A stretch of DNA of 64,000 nt from Candidatus Pelagibacter sp. (GTDB lineage Bacteria; Pseudomonadota; Alphaproteobacteria; Pelagibacterales; Pelagibacteraceae): positions 1 through 64,000 of the forward strand of contig JAOJAE010000001.1 in NCBI GenBank assembly GCA_028227525.1, given 5' to 3'. Made by a program: the position numbers and the translations under genes. Below are positions 10,612 through 16,837 of this stretch, one piece after another. How positions within the stretch are numbered: position 1 is the first letter of the stretch; every line of letters begins with the position of its first letter. The notes below the pieces were generated by a model. The model saw only the letters and a list, made by a program, of their open reading frames with translations, had not been told where the DNA came from and ran no database searches.

Positions 10612-10643
10612 AAAAAAAAAGGGCAGTAAAAACTGCCCTTTTT
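10612..10643. terminator. Bidirectional Rho-independent terminator
   Basis: The stem GGGCAGT (10621-10627) pairs with ACTGCCC (10632-10638) around an AAAA loop, extended by A-run/T-run pairs on both sides. U-tracts exist for both directions. On the minus strand it ends transcripts from the tautomerase gene; on the plus strand it can end rhlE. Confidence 0.9.
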
Positions 10644-10770
10644 GAATTTTTGTTTGAGAGTAAGGGATTACATATTCCCACATAGTACGTCAATACTTAC
10701 TTATTTAAGAACTTCATTGAAAACTTCATTGAGAAAACTCAATAATTTAAAAGCAAGTTAAAAGGTAAAT
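10612..10770 (-). repeat. Intergenic element D (terminator + iteron family)
   Basis: Most diverged member of the family described at A-C. Read on the plus strand: hairpin, then GGGATTACATATTCCCA (10664-10680), the stretch CAATACTTACTTATTT that matches element B (CAGTACTCACTTATTT), then two identical 10-mers ACTTCATTGA at 10711-10720 and 10723-10732, then an A-rich end with AAAAGCAAGTTAAAAGG. It fills the gap between the tautomerase stop and the rhlE-side small ORF. The terminator direction suggests a minus-strand 3' UTR or small RNA. Confidence 0.65.
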
Positions 10771-10805
10771 TAGCAAATTGAAGAAATTTTTTATTTTTAA
10801 ATATA

Positions 10806-11192
10806 TTATTTAGGAGCGTATTGCGCTTCCCCGTTTCCAAATGACCAGTTTTCTTTTGCAACCTCAACCAAACTTATAAAAACATCCTCTTTTCTAATAT
10901 CTAGTTCTTTGTTTAGATCTTCAGCAATTCTTTTATATAATTTTTGTTTTAATTCTGTCGATCTACCACTATTTAGAGTTATTTGAATTATAACAATTTT
11001 ATTTGTGTATTTAATTCCAAGATAACTTTCAGGAATATTTAACTCTGTATCGTCATGCTTTGTTATAATTTGAAACTTATCATCTTTTGGAACACTTATC
11101 TCTTGTTCCATAGCACGATATATAATTTCACCAATTTTTTTTGAGTTTTCAGCGTTATATGATTTGTTTAGGTCTATTCTTACTAAAGGCAT
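10806..11192 (-). CDS. Tautomerase-superfamily protein (MSAD/Tautomerase_2-like)
   Basis: 128 residues. After removal of the initiator Met the protein begins with Pro (MPLVRIDL), the catalytic N-terminal proline of the tautomerase superfamily. The C-terminal block LVEVAKENWSFGNGEAQYA is characteristic of the Tautomerase_2 / malonate-semialdehyde-decarboxylase-like group. Length fits a single fused beta-alpha-beta pair protein that trimerises. The true substrate is unknown. It is flanked by intergenic elements D (downstream) and A (upstream) and looks like an accessory gene rather than part of an operon. Confidence 0.85.
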   Translation of the reverse strand: MPLVRIDLNKSYNAENSKKIGEIIYRAMEQEISVPKDDKFQIITKHDDTELNIPESYLGIKYTNKIVIIQITLNSGRSTELKQKLYKRIAEDLNKELDIRKEDVFISLVEVAKENWSFGNGEAQYAPK

Positions 11193-11228
11193 AATTACTT
11201 CTTATATAATTTCAAATTATACAGCAAT

Positions 11229-11420
11229 AAAAAAACCCCTAAAACTTTCATTTCAGGGGGTCTAATTTTGTTTAGTGTATGTATTTAGAGTGTTCTCTAA
11301 ATGGAAACGTATTACATACACTTCAGGTGTCTAAATAATTACTGATTTACTTGTCTTTTCTTAAAATTGTTCATCACTGTTCATCACTTTTAGGGTCAAA
11401 TTCAAAAGGAACTCAAAAGC
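11229..11420 (-). repeat. Intergenic element A, ~190 bp, putative minus-strand ncRNA/3' UTR
   Basis: Plus-strand order: terminator hairpin CCCCT (11236-11240) / AGGGG (11255-11259) whose U-run lies on the minus strand; TAATTTTGTTTAGTGTATG; a perfect 8-bp inverted repeat ATTTAGAG-TGTT-CTCTAAAT (about 11283-11302); GGAAACGTATTACAT; two abutting 10-mers TGTTCATCAC (11368-11377 and 11378-11387); and CAAATTCAAAAGGAACTCAA before the GNAT stop at 11423. It is very similar to element C along its full length. The 230-bp gap holds no credible ORF. It ends transcripts of the GNAT gene and may itself be a small RNA. Confidence 0.8.
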
Positions 11421-11422
11421 AA

Positions 11423-14340: not shown

Positions 14341-14948
14341 TTATTTTTTTCTACCAATTCACCATTTTCAAATTTTCCAACACGTTTTTCGCCATTAGAA
14401 AGAGTTAAAGTGCCATGACCATTAGGTTTACCATCTTTATGTTCACCAAAGTAGTTTGACCCATCTTTTAACATAAAAGTTCCCTGTCCATTAATTATTC
14501 CATCTTTAAATTGACCAATGTAGGAATTTCCATCTGGAAATTTTAAAGTACCTGTTCCATGTGGTACACCATCTTTAAATTCACCTTTATAAATTCCACC
14601 ATCAGGATAATTTAGAGTATTTTCAGTACTAGAAAGTTTTCCATCCTCCCAATCTTTCCACCATTCCATTTTTTTTTCAATAAAATCTAAATTTTTTACT
14701 TGTATAAGAAAATCATCTTCAGTTTTACATTTGGTTAAAACCCAATCTAAAACATCAGATGTTAAGTTTAAAAAATGTAAAACTACTTTTTGTTTTGCTT
14801 TTTTTTCATCACTGTATTCAGGACTGTCTTTAATGCTAGTGGCACTTAGAGGAATGCCCACACTGTCAATAATAGTAAAACCTAAATTTCTAACTTCAGT
14901 AATTCTTGAAAGTAATTCTGATTTAATTTTACTAGTCTTATCAACCAT
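14337..14948 (-). CDS. MORN-repeat protein 2
   Basis: 203 residues from the ATG at 14948; a TTG five codons upstream (14963) would add MLDLV. Residues ~1-105 are an alpha-helical region of unknown type. Residues ~110-203 are four MORN repeats (YPDGGIYKGEFKDGVPHGTG and similar) ending in KRVGKFENGELVEKNN. It faces the four-gene MORN run tail to tail. Two MORN genes on opposite strands with different extra domains suggest either duplication followed by domain gain or a shared partner. No function is assigned. Confidence 0.82.
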   Translation of the reverse strand: MVDKTSKIKSELLSRITEVRNLGFTIIDSVGIPLSATSIKDSPEYSDEKKAKQKVVLHFLNLTSDVLDWVLTKCKTEDDFLIQVKNLDFIEKKMEWWKDWEDGKLSSTENTLNYPDGGIYKGEFKDGVPHGTGTLKFPDGNSYIGQFKDGIINGQGTFMLKDGSNYFGEHKDGKPNGHGTLTLSNGEKRVGKFENGELVEKNN

Positions 14949-15062
14949 AACTAAATCTAACAAATCAACATCTATTTTACTACTTTGAAATTGTTAGGTA
15001 TTCTTTTGTGTAGTTTGATTAATGCCTCATCAGAATTACCTAGATAGACACTCCAGCGTCTC

Positions 15063-15100
15063 AAATTGTTCATCTAACGTTCATCTATTTGTTCATCTAT
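15063..15100 (-). repeat. Element E iterons: three GTTCATCTA copies
   Basis: GTTCATCTA occurs at 15068-15076, 15079-15087 and 15091-15099 (spacing 11 and 12), preceded by AAATTG as in element C (AAAATTG before its first copy). These are the same iteron letters as element C, but with three copies. In this element the iterons lie on the other side of the hairpin (groEL terminator 15112-15152) compared with A-C, so E is a partial or rearranged member. The rest of the gap 14964-15062 shows nothing I can identify. Confidence 0.65.
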
Positions 15101-15111
15101 AGTGCAGACAT

Positions 15112-15152
15112 AAAAAAAACCCCAAAAGTATTACTACCGTTGGGGTTTTTAA
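15112..15152. terminator. groEL Rho-independent terminator (bidirectional)
   Basis: AAAAACCCCAA pairs with TTGGGGTTTTT around a 14-base loop, with A/T runs on both sides, 25 bases behind the groEL stop on the minus strand. Hairpin composition (CCCC-AAAA side, GGGG side) resembles the hairpins of elements A and C. Confidence 0.9.
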
Positions 15153-15175
15153 ATTTCGTAGGTACGAAAAGGGTA

Positions 15176-16837
15176 TTACATTCCCATTCCGCCCATTCCA
15201 CCCATGCCGCCCATTCCACCAGGCATACCACCAGGCATTCCGCCTCCAGCATCTTTTTCTTCTGGCTTATCAGCAATCATGGCTTCTGTAGTTACAAGTA
15301 ACCCAGCAATTGAAGCAGCATCTTGTAAAGCTGTTCTTACAACTTTAACAGGATCTATGATACCTTTAGAAAACATATCAACGTACTCTTCATTTTGAGC
15401 ATCATATCCTTGGCTCTTTTTATTTTGCTCTAATAGTTTTCCAACTACAACAGAACCATCAACTCCAGCATTTAAAGTTATTTGTCTAATAGGAGCCTGT
15501 AAAGCTTTGGCTACTAGTGCAACACCAGATTTTTGATCATCTCCTTTAACTTTAAGAGAGTCTAGACTTTGTGAAGCATATAAAAGCGCACAACCACCAC
15601 CAACTACTATTCCTTCTTCAACAGCAGCTCTAGTTGCATTTAATGCATCTTCAACTCTATCTTTTCTTTCTTTAACTTCAACTTCGGTTGCACCACCAAC
15701 TTTAATAACTGCAACACCACCTGCTAATTTAGCAAGTCTTTCTTGAAGTTTTTCTCTATCATAATCAGATGTTGTCTCATCAACTTGTTTTTTAATTGAA
15801 TCACATCTAGCTGCGATATCAGATTTTTTACCACTACCGCTAACGATTGTACTGTTATCTTTATCAACTTTAATCTTTTTACAAGATCCAAGGTCTTCAA
15901 GTTTAACGTTTTCAAGTTTAATTCCAAGATCTTGAGAGATTACTTGGCCACCAGTTAATATAGCAATATCTTCAAGCATAGCTTTTCTTCTATCACCAAA
16001 ACCTGGAGCTTTAACAGCAACAACTTTTAATCCACCTCTTAGTTTGTTTACAACTAAAGTAGCTAATGCTTCTCCCTCAACATCTTCAGAGATAATCATT
16101 AATGGTCTACCTGATTGTACAACAGCTTCTAGTAATGGAACCATTGGTTGCAAGTTAGTTAATTTGCTTTCATGTAATAAGATGTAAGGATTGTCTAACT
16201 CAGTTGTCATTTTATCACTGTTAGTAATAAAGTATGGAGATAGATATCCTCTATCAAACTGCATACCTTCAACAACATCAAGTTCGGTATCAATTCCTTT
16301 TGCTTCTTCAACAGTAATAACACCTTCGTTTCCAACTTTTTGCATTGCTTTTGCAATCATTGTTCCGATTTCTTTATCACCATTAGCAGAAATTGTTCCA
16401 ACCTGAGCAATCTCATCACTGTCTTTAACTTTTTTCGCAGAAGAGATTAAGTTTTCTTTAACATGTTCAACAGCTGCATCAATTCCTCTTTTCACATCCA
16501 TTGGATTCATACCAGCAGTTACGTATTTAACTCCTTCTTTAACAATAGCTTGAGCTAAAATAGTTGCAGTAGTTGTACCATCACCAGCTTCCTCATTGGT
16601 TTTGCTAGCTACTTCTTTAACCATTTGAGCGCCCATGTTTTCAAATTTATCTTCAAGATCAATTTCTTTTGCAACAGAAACACCATCTTTAGTAATTCTT
16701 GGTGCACCGTAAGATTTATCCATTACAACATTTCTGCCTTTTGGACCTAAAGTAACTTTAACGGTATCAGCTAAAATATTGACACCTCTCATCATTGCCG
16801 CTCTTGCTTCAGCGTCAAATTTAATTATTTTTGCCAT
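15176..16837 (-). CDS. groEL: 60-kDa chaperonin GroEL
   Basis: 553 residues, standard for GroEL. This chaperonin forms a double heptameric ring that folds proteins with GroES and ATP. The N terminus [20 protein letters not shown], the ATP-binding [12 protein letters not shown] block, the alphaproteobacterial chaperonin signature around [12 protein letters not shown], and the C-terminal GGM tail ([10 protein letters not shown]...MGM) are all present. It lies 23 bp downstream of groES with a good SD (AGGAGA). A strong terminator follows. The last 17 bases around its stop codon recur in elements B and C (see findings). Confidence 0.98.

Follow-up and report, generated by a model that had tools for sequence, protein, structure and literature searches.

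The accessory genes behind groEL in a Candidatus Pelagibacter sp. genome are probably carried on four tandemly arrayed gene cassettes that were integrated site-specifically at the groEL 3' end; we put the probability of this reading at about 0.7. The repeats between these genes are recombination junctions and not ordinary intergenic repeats. The piece with the array and groEL covers positions 10,612-16,837 of the window, that is, of the whole 64,000-nucleotide stretch analysed (contig JAOJAE010000001.1), and groEL is read from the minus strand. From groEL outward, the order is cassettes with a MORN run, a UDG-like gene, a GNAT gene and a tautomerase gene, then displaced native groEL 3' flank, rhlE and typA. 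The features of the locus and its flank are:

15176..16837, minus strand: groEL (ORF list), the GroEL query for searches; its 3' end is the putative attB-like target and the source of the core
15176..15189, minus strand: core at the groEL end, GAATGGGAATGTAA, including the stop codon (sequence; core pattern)
15100..15175, minus strand: right half of E, the groEL 3' UTR and terminator hairpin, apparently borne by cassette 1 (RNA fold z -2.7; T-run)
15068..15098, minus strand: P'-like arms, three copies of AGATGAAC at +77, +89 and +100 from the core (repeat positions)
13056..15175, minus strand: cassette 1, 2,120 bp, encoding MORN 208 aa, 98 aa, 79 aa and MORN 163 aa (cores; Pfam MORN)
12971..13180, minus strand: element C, with left half, core at 13056-13067 and class I right half with terminator (profile; core pattern)
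13123-13130 and 13113-13120, minus strand: element C P arms, two copies of AGATGAAC
12180..13055, minus strand: cassette 2, 876 bp, encoding a UDG-superfamily protein of 220 aa (cores; Pfam UDG, E=9e-07)
12311-12973, plus strand: UDG-superfamily gene of cassette 2 (Pfam UDG)
12095..12300, minus strand: element B, with core at 12180-12191 and class I right half (profile; core pattern)
12236-12243 and 12224-12231, minus strand: element B P arms, CAGTGAAC/CAGTGAAG
11312..12179, minus strand: cassette 3, about 869 bp, encoding a GNAT acetyltransferase of 218 aa (Pfam Acetyltransf_3)
11227..11421, minus strand: element A, with variant core at about 11312-11323 and class I right half (profile)
11379-11386 and 11369-11376, minus strand: element A P arms, two copies of TGATGAAC
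10668..11311, minus strand: cassette 4, about 642 bp, encoding a tautomerase of 128 aa (Pfam Tautomerase_2)
10610..10791, minus strand: element D, with variant core at 10668-10681, followed at 10616-10643 by the native groEL terminator, now displaced (profile)
10724-10731 and 10712-10719, minus strand: element D P arms, two copies of CAATGAAG
10474..10587, minus strand: ORF of 37 aa in the native groEL 3' flank, which empty strains have as well (sequence; alignments)
8771..10477, plus strand: rhlE, native flank in near relatives (ORF list; relatives)
6768..8594, minus strand: typA, which in this lineage marks the far end of the hotspot (ORF list; relatives)

Anatomy of the elements

The initial annotation had placed related sequences, read on the plus strand, in five gaps between rhlE and groEL. 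D, A, B and C are indeed related and lie in a single orientation, but the functional strand is the minus strand, in the groEL sense, and the supposed partial copy E (about 15068-15191) is groEL's own 3' end (core, UTR and terminator) together with three GATGAAC repeats. The near-complete alignment of A with C was borne out (83% identity over 191 nt). Among the blocks described as common to the family, TTTAGAGTGTTCT is found in A, B and C only; D has the left half and the core, its right half being the old groEL terminator. Local alignment against 200 first-order shuffles gave scores above the best shuffle for A-C (233 against 27), B-C (102 against 28), A-B (79 against 40) and B-D (37 against 28); A-D and C-D, each scoring 22, fell below their best shuffles (27 and 35). 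A left-half profile trained only on 24 sequences from outside the window gave 65.8 bits for C, 53.5 for B, 42.5 for A and 33.4 for D, compared with 5.4 bits for the next match in the window and 7.9 bits for the best of 30 shuffled windows.

On the groEL strand an element consists of a left half, a core and a right half. The left half, or P arm, contains two 11-bp direct repeats and two GATGAAC-type repeats and leads into the core, which repeats the final codons of groEL over about 14 bp, stop codon included (G[AT]ATGnGAATGTAA). The right half comprises the 3' UTR and terminator. A scan with the core pattern revealed that left and right halves are reshuffled among elements at this core; because the pattern was set before core conservation was counted, conservation can be judged only at the positions that the pattern left free. 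Before counting, L195 and one L086 site were dropped as false core matches (L195 remains among the 19 core-pattern loci), and the L009 cassette of 1,229 bp, which holds a second element lacking a strict core, was counted as one.

The right halves form strong terminator folds (z -2.7 to -5.7), with a T-run in 54 of 56 cassette starts, and a class I right half, conserved across species, is found in 20 of the 56, including window elements A, B and C. These properties would also be expected if chance had duplicated regulatory or RNA elements, namely groEL terminators and small RNAs, with gene content varying for other reasons. No Rfam family reached its gathering score in the region, and six weak matches were set aside; the best of them, BTnc005 and His_leader, aligned mostly on a terminator hairpin. 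Such a reading leaves unexplained the matched empty and filled sites, the lack of arms in all 58 empty sites (see below), the fixed position behind groEL and the transfer of cassette genes between species, and we consider it very improbable.

Distribution and junctions at groEL

The left half was detected at E<1e-6 in 46 of 397 SAR11 genomes, a search whose stricter filters may lose weak copies. In 42 of these genomes it lies downstream of groEL on the same strand, rather than in scattered copies as for a dispersed repeat of the MITE or REP type; three matches are cut by a contig end and one, a strong match in G216, lies elsewhere, away from groEL. Among 62 other groEL loci (L019-L080, two of them titled Pelagibacteraceae) no left half was found (best E=3), and L276 (G069), a weak model match, was discarded since it has neither groEL nor an element recognised by the left-half profile. 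Other genomes have different genes between copies of the element, and near relatives differ in content, as the initial annotation had anticipated for a repeat-bounded gene-cassette region. Among the four genomes whose GroEL best matches that of the window, G350 (97%) and G045 (96%) have no cassette before rhlE, the G350 contig ending within rhlE; G226 (95%) has one extra gene without a recognised element; and G179 (96%) has a long array. rhlE itself is part of the native flank in near relatives and not of a cassette. The UDG gene had no match in 61 genomes around G045, a result that by itself shows nothing.

The distance between groEL and typA is less than 350 bp in 58 of 139 sampled loci, which we call empty; intervals of 600 bp or more were taken as filled (n=49). 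In 10 of the 49 filled intervals, among them L005 and L187 with variant cores, the native flank resumes at the core, between -15 and -6 relative to the groEL stop. DNA beyond the last core matches the groEL 3' flank of an empty relative at 98% in L004 and L097, 97% in L009 and L094, 93% in L106 and L112 and 89% in L117, and more weakly (62%) in L008. The right side of window element D is likewise 92% identical over 300 bp to the groEL 3' flank of the relative L083, against 55% for the window's own groEL flank.

A recognisable internal core is present in 14 of the 49 filled intervals, or 16 counting variant cores. In L132, L157 and L162 cores are present, yet the native flank resumes at +88 or +89. 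In 20 filled intervals with no distal core, the best native-flank match starts at +48 to +89, approximately the terminator end; of the other coreless intervals, six hold rhlE and seven start native flank at +24 or from +170 on. The 20 intervals are not explained by the site-specific model and, together with the seven, they indicate that other filling routes exist or that ends have decayed or diverged.

These 20 intervals would speak for RecA-dependent homologous recombination, combined with natural DNA uptake, between the repeats or between groEL and downstream core genes, the elements being ordinary terminators that accompany the exchange. The A-C match at 83% over 191 nt is long enough for such exchange, and homologous recombination at SAR11 variable regions was proposed earlier (PMC2217521, in the part of the article available). 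As the main step, however, recombination between copies of about 190 bp, favoured by the initial annotation, fits poorly: groEL and the internal junction share only about 14 bp, junctions fall at the core in the ten loci described above, and covariation of motifs at the two cassette ends, at a constant distance from the core, would not be expected. We therefore regard it as unlikely to have built the arrays, although homologous exchange could spread existing ones.

Arm-like repeats and the search for a recombinase

Two to four P'-like arms follow the terminator, typically near +77, +89 and +100, in 24 of 56 cassette starts; they are missing from the other 32 and from all 58 empty sites (0/58). 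Arms before the distal core are positioned at -75/-65 or -64/-52. The arrangement of a lambda-type attP, in which one arm motif flanks the core left and right at a fixed helical spacing, is seen at 24 of the 56 starts. The motif varies among the cassettes of the window array (AGATGAAC, CAGTGAAC, TGATGAAC, CAATGAAG) and matches within a cassette. Covariation was computed for 21 cassettes in a first run and for 19 in a second, which omitted L273 and L279 (cassettes under 300 bp) because both arm windows read identical bases. With the 19, arm motifs matched within a cassette at 0.964, against a shuffled mean of 0.846 and maximum of 0.941; none of 100,000 shuffles reached the observed value. Restricting the comparison to 10 distinct pairs gave p=0.00012. 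The reshuffling of halves at the core, the resumption of native flank there and the shared arms at fixed distance fit site-specific recombination.

The target would be the last ~14 bp of groEL. A cassette, presumably circular, would enter with a phage-type attachment site consisting of the P arm on one side and, on the other, a P' region that brings a new 3' UTR, a terminator and often two to four repeats of the same type. Crossover within the core would leave groEL intact, furnish it with the cassette's terminator and push the old groEL 3' end outward, where in the window it would now be element D. Repeated insertion would build the array, which may have grown at its groEL end.

The earlier observation that the interval lacks an integrase was upheld: it has no ORF with an integrase motif, and its seven main proteins show no integrase domain in Pfam. 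Six ORFs matched in the integrase-motif scan, all outside the groEL interval, and a search of the arrays, and of the groEL surroundings in 48 genomes, gave no integrase. We infer from this that a recombinase acts in trans; the likeliest candidate would be a tyrosine integrase of the lambda type that has an arm-binding domain and is encoded on a helper element. The arm-binding domain PF13356 was detected in 4 of 397 genomes, on a contig other than that of groEL or the element in three; the fourth is G052.

Cassettes without an integrase could also be accounted for if the host's Xer-type recombinase acted on them, aided by accessory proteins at the direct repeats in the manner of Xer-exploiting elements. 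A single tyrosine recombinase was found in six of eight genomes searched, including G179 with its long array; this putative Xer, a protein of about 325 aa, was taken for Xer by its size and number. A search with a dif pattern gave about as many matches as the reversed control and allows no comparison of core and dif. Against host Xer, the arm motif differs across the cassettes of one array and matches within each, which suggests several specific recombinases and not one host protein. Action by Xer thus appears quite improbable to us.

As to the presumed helper, scans of IMG/VR with exact and gapped patterns, including a rescan, found no phage or plasmid att site with core and arms, and blastn of two element halves against phages and of one against plasmids gave no match. 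Nor was a SAR11 provirus at groEL found in IMG/VR, where the best GroEL identity among 80 loci kept was 72% and none was SAR11-like. Three viral contigs, two of them near-identical, carry an integrase-motif ORF about 80 bp behind a non-SAR11 groEL; the one such ORF tested has integrase and arm-binding domains. These ORFs provide a precedent for groEL-directed integration.

Cargo and comparison with known systems

Pfam matches among 87 cassette ORFs comprise 44 families. In 7 of 12 tested gene pairs, representing six different genes, cassette identity is 92-97% compared with 78-81% for groEL; in the other five, similarity of the cassette gene is below that of groEL or not far above it. These identities show several cassette genes to have passed between SAR11 species. 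PADLOC gave no match for the seven cassette proteins of the window. Restriction systems can block phages, and some cassettes encode type I and type II systems. HsdR-family matches occur in 16 of 397 genomes: four lie in a groEL cassette by coordinates, five on a contig lacking groEL and seven are unplaced. In the available part of one survey, 19 of 172 Ca. Pelagibacter ubique genomes had anti-phage systems, every one of the restriction-modification type (PMC11066056).

A defined groEL site that receives foreign genes, type I and type II restriction systems included, would offer streamlined genomes a precise and testable route of gene gain, and prompts one to ask which recombinase is responsible for cassette insertion. 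Few bacterial groups on Earth are as abundant as SAR11, whose genomes are tiny and have few known mobile elements; the open-licence PMC literature searched yielded no description of the groEL cassette site. Whether SAR11 practises integron-like gene trading without a resident integrase, in which minimal cassettes with lambda-type att sites use the integrases of several passing elements, target the groEL end and swap its terminator at each insertion, seems to us evenly balanced. If it does, such trading would spread accessory genes, restriction systems among them, between SAR11 species.

Integron arrays consist of integrase-less cassettes, often of one gene, lined up at a set location with their sites all pointing the same way. 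SAR11 cassettes are likewise integrase-less and queued at a fixed place with their recombination sites in one orientation. They differ in having attP-like direct-repeat arms, genes in both orientations and a terminator supplied to groEL; moreover, the SAR11 arrays searched showed no integrase inside or next to them, where an integron would have one beside its array. In lambda attP, the core lies between arms of short direct repeats, usually with three repeats in one arm and two in the other. The SAR11 sites resemble it in the direct repeats, spaced 10-12 bp, that flank the core; they differ in the extra 11-bp repeat pair on the left, in the 32 of 56 starts without the three-repeat side and in that no phage genes were seen.

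Strain-variable gene content in streamlined genomes is shared with the SAR11 hypervariable regions HVR1-4; in the portion of PMC2217521 available, these are named, no attC sites are reported and the groEL site is not described. The ssrA islands of Dehalococcoides, as far as the available text of PMC3146451 goes, are also tandem behind one conserved gene and bounded by repeats of its 3' end, with 15 of them lacking integration modules. There the repeat is a 20-bp ssrA sequence and 16 islands have a serine-type integrase, whereas in SAR11 the target is groEL, a tyrosine integrase is suggested by the arm-like repeats, and no integrase was detected in any array. The loci and genomes searched revealed no related ICE, IME or prophage at the groEL site. 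Cis-mobilizable elements (CIMEs), in the accessible part of PMC5704250, are defined as having kept attL and attR and lost integration and transfer genes, and are described as decayed ICEs or IMEs; most SAR11 cassettes hold one to four ORFs. Junctions of the attL/attR type at both ends emerged from the empty-site comparison in 10 loci, 20 others having no distal core. Like CIMEs and tandem accretion arrays (PMC5704250, same part), the SAR11 cassettes appear to have piled up at a target gene's end through site-specific recombination. By analogy, the closest known kind would be cis-mobilizable elements, here arranged in integron-like arrays.

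Elements of the rhlE-groEL interval

The window is SAR11: among 397 genomes of the family searched, 352 have a GroEL match, the best at 97% identity to that of the window. Its relevant features are as follows.

between typA/rhlE and groEL: tautomerase, GNAT protein, UDG-superfamily protein, and a run of two MORN proteins and two small ORFs (ORF list, Pfam)
10000-10287: three 96-bp tandem repeats, 95-100% identical, within the rhlE C-terminal coding region
10474-10587: 37-aa lysine-rich ORF (MSKRYSGKSFKDSS...), flanked by the native groEL terminator and rhlE/typA, recurring in empty strains
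59371-59439, minus strand: bablM sRNA (RF01784), 89 bits

The initial annotation described a family of related sequences filling the gaps between rhlE and groEL, and related DNA is indeed found there, elements A and C being 83% identical over 191 nt. The claimed likeness above random holds insofar as a left-half profile built from 24 non-window sequences recovers all four gap elements (A, B, C and D) at 33-66 bits, compared with a top score of 7.9 bits in 30 shuffled windows; however, pairs A-D and C-D align no better than shuffles, so that only the left half and core tie D to the others. In the groEL sense, the element consists of, in order, TGAAGTCATC, two 11-bp repeats (e.g. TTTTGAATTGC), two GATGAAC-type repeats spaced by 10 or 12 bp (these forming the left half), an AT-rich stretch, a core, a UTR and a terminator. 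The core is a copy of the groEL end, ...GGAATGGGAATGTAA, and from profile position 110 onward the A-D profile also matches the end of groEL in five further strains. Terminator-like hairpins with T-tails were reported on the minus strand at A, B, C and D; the same search reported none at E, the 3' end of groEL itself. All five right halves (A-E) fold better than the shuffle mean (z -2.7 to -5.7).

Filled and empty groEL sites

The array is best explained by a model in which cassettes would integrate site-specifically at the end of groEL through a recombinase supplied from outside the array, and each insertion (four cassettes in the window) would push the old groEL 3' end outward. The right side of D shares 92% identity with the groEL 3' flank of a relative (locus L083), against 55% for the window's own groEL flank, suggesting that the old groEL end was displaced by four cassettes.

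The comparison covered 139 loci: the groEL downstream regions of 120 SAR11 genomes (most of the best 150 GroEL-match places listed), 18 Pelagibacteraceae loci and the window. With a strict core pattern, the loci divide into 63 without an internal core whose interval does not exceed 350 bp, 57 whose interval is longer and lacks a strict core (contig ends and other neighbour genes included), and 19 with at least one core, L195 among them being a false match. TypA lay within 350 bp of groEL in 58. In filled loci, DNA beyond the last core reaches 98% identity with empty relatives, and the 60 bp preceding the last core match groEL at a raw match fraction of only 0.38-0.57 (eight loci). Of the 49 groEL-typA intervals spanning 600 bp or more, 16 contain a core, strict in 14 and variant in two; in ten, the native flank resumes between -15 and -6 relative to the groEL stop. 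Counter to the integration model, the best native-flank match begins only at +48 to +89 in 20 core-less intervals and at +24 or from +170 in seven more, six others hold rhlE alone or rhlE with one extra gene, and three core-bearing loci resume the native flank at +88 or +89. At four loci (L151, L159, L157 and L162), the 37-aa ORF is preceded by a 313-aa ORF with no core after it, equal in length in all four and alike by eye in L151/L159 only; these perhaps represent a second way of filling the interval.

Past the terminator, many cassettes open with repeats of the distal left-half type, two to four in number and typically at +77, +89 and +100 from the core; the distal repeats lie at -75/-65 or -64/-52. 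Such arms occur at 24 of 56 cassette starts, and a class I right half (AGAACACTCTAAATACATACACTAAACAAAATTAG plus terminator) at 20; one start combines the two, and 13 lack both. No arms were found at 58 empty sites. The same motif variant tends to occur on both sides of one cassette: AGATGAAC in the window (three times on one side, twice on the other), TGATGAAT in L004, TAATGAAC in L272 and CAATGAAC in L283. The within-cassette match averaged 0.964 (19 cassettes of at least 300 bp), against a mean of 0.846 and a maximum of 0.941 in 100,000 shuffles, with p=0.00012 for 10 distinct pairs, figures that are not fully independent because the cassettes are related to one another. Arms of repeats on both sides of a core are likewise the layout of a lambda-type attP. 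Different cassettes within one array carry different variants, which hints at several recombinases behind the arrays. Two cassettes of 151 and 174 bp (L273, L279) have arms and core and are too short for a gene.

Distribution and cargo across SAR11

In the profile search of SAR11 genomes that the initial annotation had proposed, the element proved not to be unique to the window: a sequence-only left-half model, R1 (13 sequences), run with stricter filters, matched 90 of 397 genomes at E<=0.01 and 46 at E<1e-6, eight of the latter having each supplied a training sequence. By coordinates and fetched stretches, 42 of the 46 matches lie downstream of groEL on the same strand. In G035, G136 and G303 the contig stops before groEL, and the neighbourhood resembles subclades where groEL is followed by genes that we take to be hisG-hisZ-hisS. 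The one match elsewhere (genome G216; L275 6035-6153, contig G216:C44) comprises a left half, core and arms and lies more than 6 kb from any groEL, possibly a secondary site or a rearrangement. Other subclades have a gene different from typA on the far side of the array; the hotspot thus goes with groEL rather than with the gene next to it. The left half was not found in 62 further groEL loci; many assemblies are fragmented, and absence in a single genome therefore means little.

The same element bounds different genes in other SAR11 genomes, with restriction, methyltransferase, MORN and other cargo. Among the Pfam families listed (25 of 44) for 87 cassette ORFs from these genomes are HsdM domain (5), HsdS (5), HsdR N-terminal (4), AlwI-like and HindIII-like endonucleases (1 each), further DNA methylases, FkbM methyltransferases, MORN proteins and others. 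The PADLOC families listed (25 of 290) for cassette ORFs are nearly all restriction systems; the window cassette cargo gave no PADLOC match. Of the 397 genomes, 16 have an HsdR-type match; by coordinates, four of these lie in groEL cassettes and five on other contigs, with seven not placed.

Twelve gene pairs common to cassettes were compared. Seven, representing six genes and including three pairs from one kind of restriction cassette, show 92-97% DNA identity versus 78-81% for groEL, the groEL comparison being based on its last 231-304 bp in nine of the 12; in the other five the cassette gene is less similar than groEL or little more. In type I restriction cassettes downstream of groEL (L086, L093, L280), HsdR is 92-94% identical. 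Within the cluster that these form with L184, specificity subunits are only 25-52% identical and a 110-133 aa ORF is 95-100% identical. The specificity subunit may be swapped between cassettes.

Recombinases and known systems

The interval was said to lack an integrase, and the six ORFs with integrase-like motifs in the 139 loci all lie beyond it. A search for PF00589 in 48 genomes (the 46 at E<1e-6 plus G069 and G005) gave 39 matches in 34 genomes, mostly one protein of ~310-330 aa per genome, taken for Xer by its size; none of the 39 shared a contig with groEL or a confirmed element. Six of eight genomes (G013, G045, G036, G088, G053 and G179) have exactly one tyrosine recombinase match (~325 aa), which is unusual if Xer is normally paired. 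The arm-binding integrase domain PF13356 was found in 4 of 397 genomes. No att site with core and arms was found in IMG/VR, and neither phages (two halves searched by blastn) nor plasmids (one half) gave a match. In three viral contigs (L325, L327 and L332, two near-identical), an integrase-motif ORF starts ~80 bp beyond the stop codon of a non-SAR11 groEL. The L325 ORF, the one tested, carries PF00589 and the arm-binding domain PF14657, indicating that the groEL 3' end can be a tyrosine-integrase target. Mycobacteriophage Bxb1 reportedly uses groEL1.

Related literature deals with SAR11 hypervariable regions (PMC2217521), SAR11 anti-phage systems (PMC11066056) and ssrA island arrays (PMC3146451); see also PMC2704228 and PMC8931226. 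The array works like the CIME accretion arrays described in PMC5704250. Att-type junctions are present at both ends, and no integrase was found in the arrays; it may be a CIME proper, which would imply descent from an ICE or IME. Integron arrays are alike in outcome, but the present array falls outside the integron definition.
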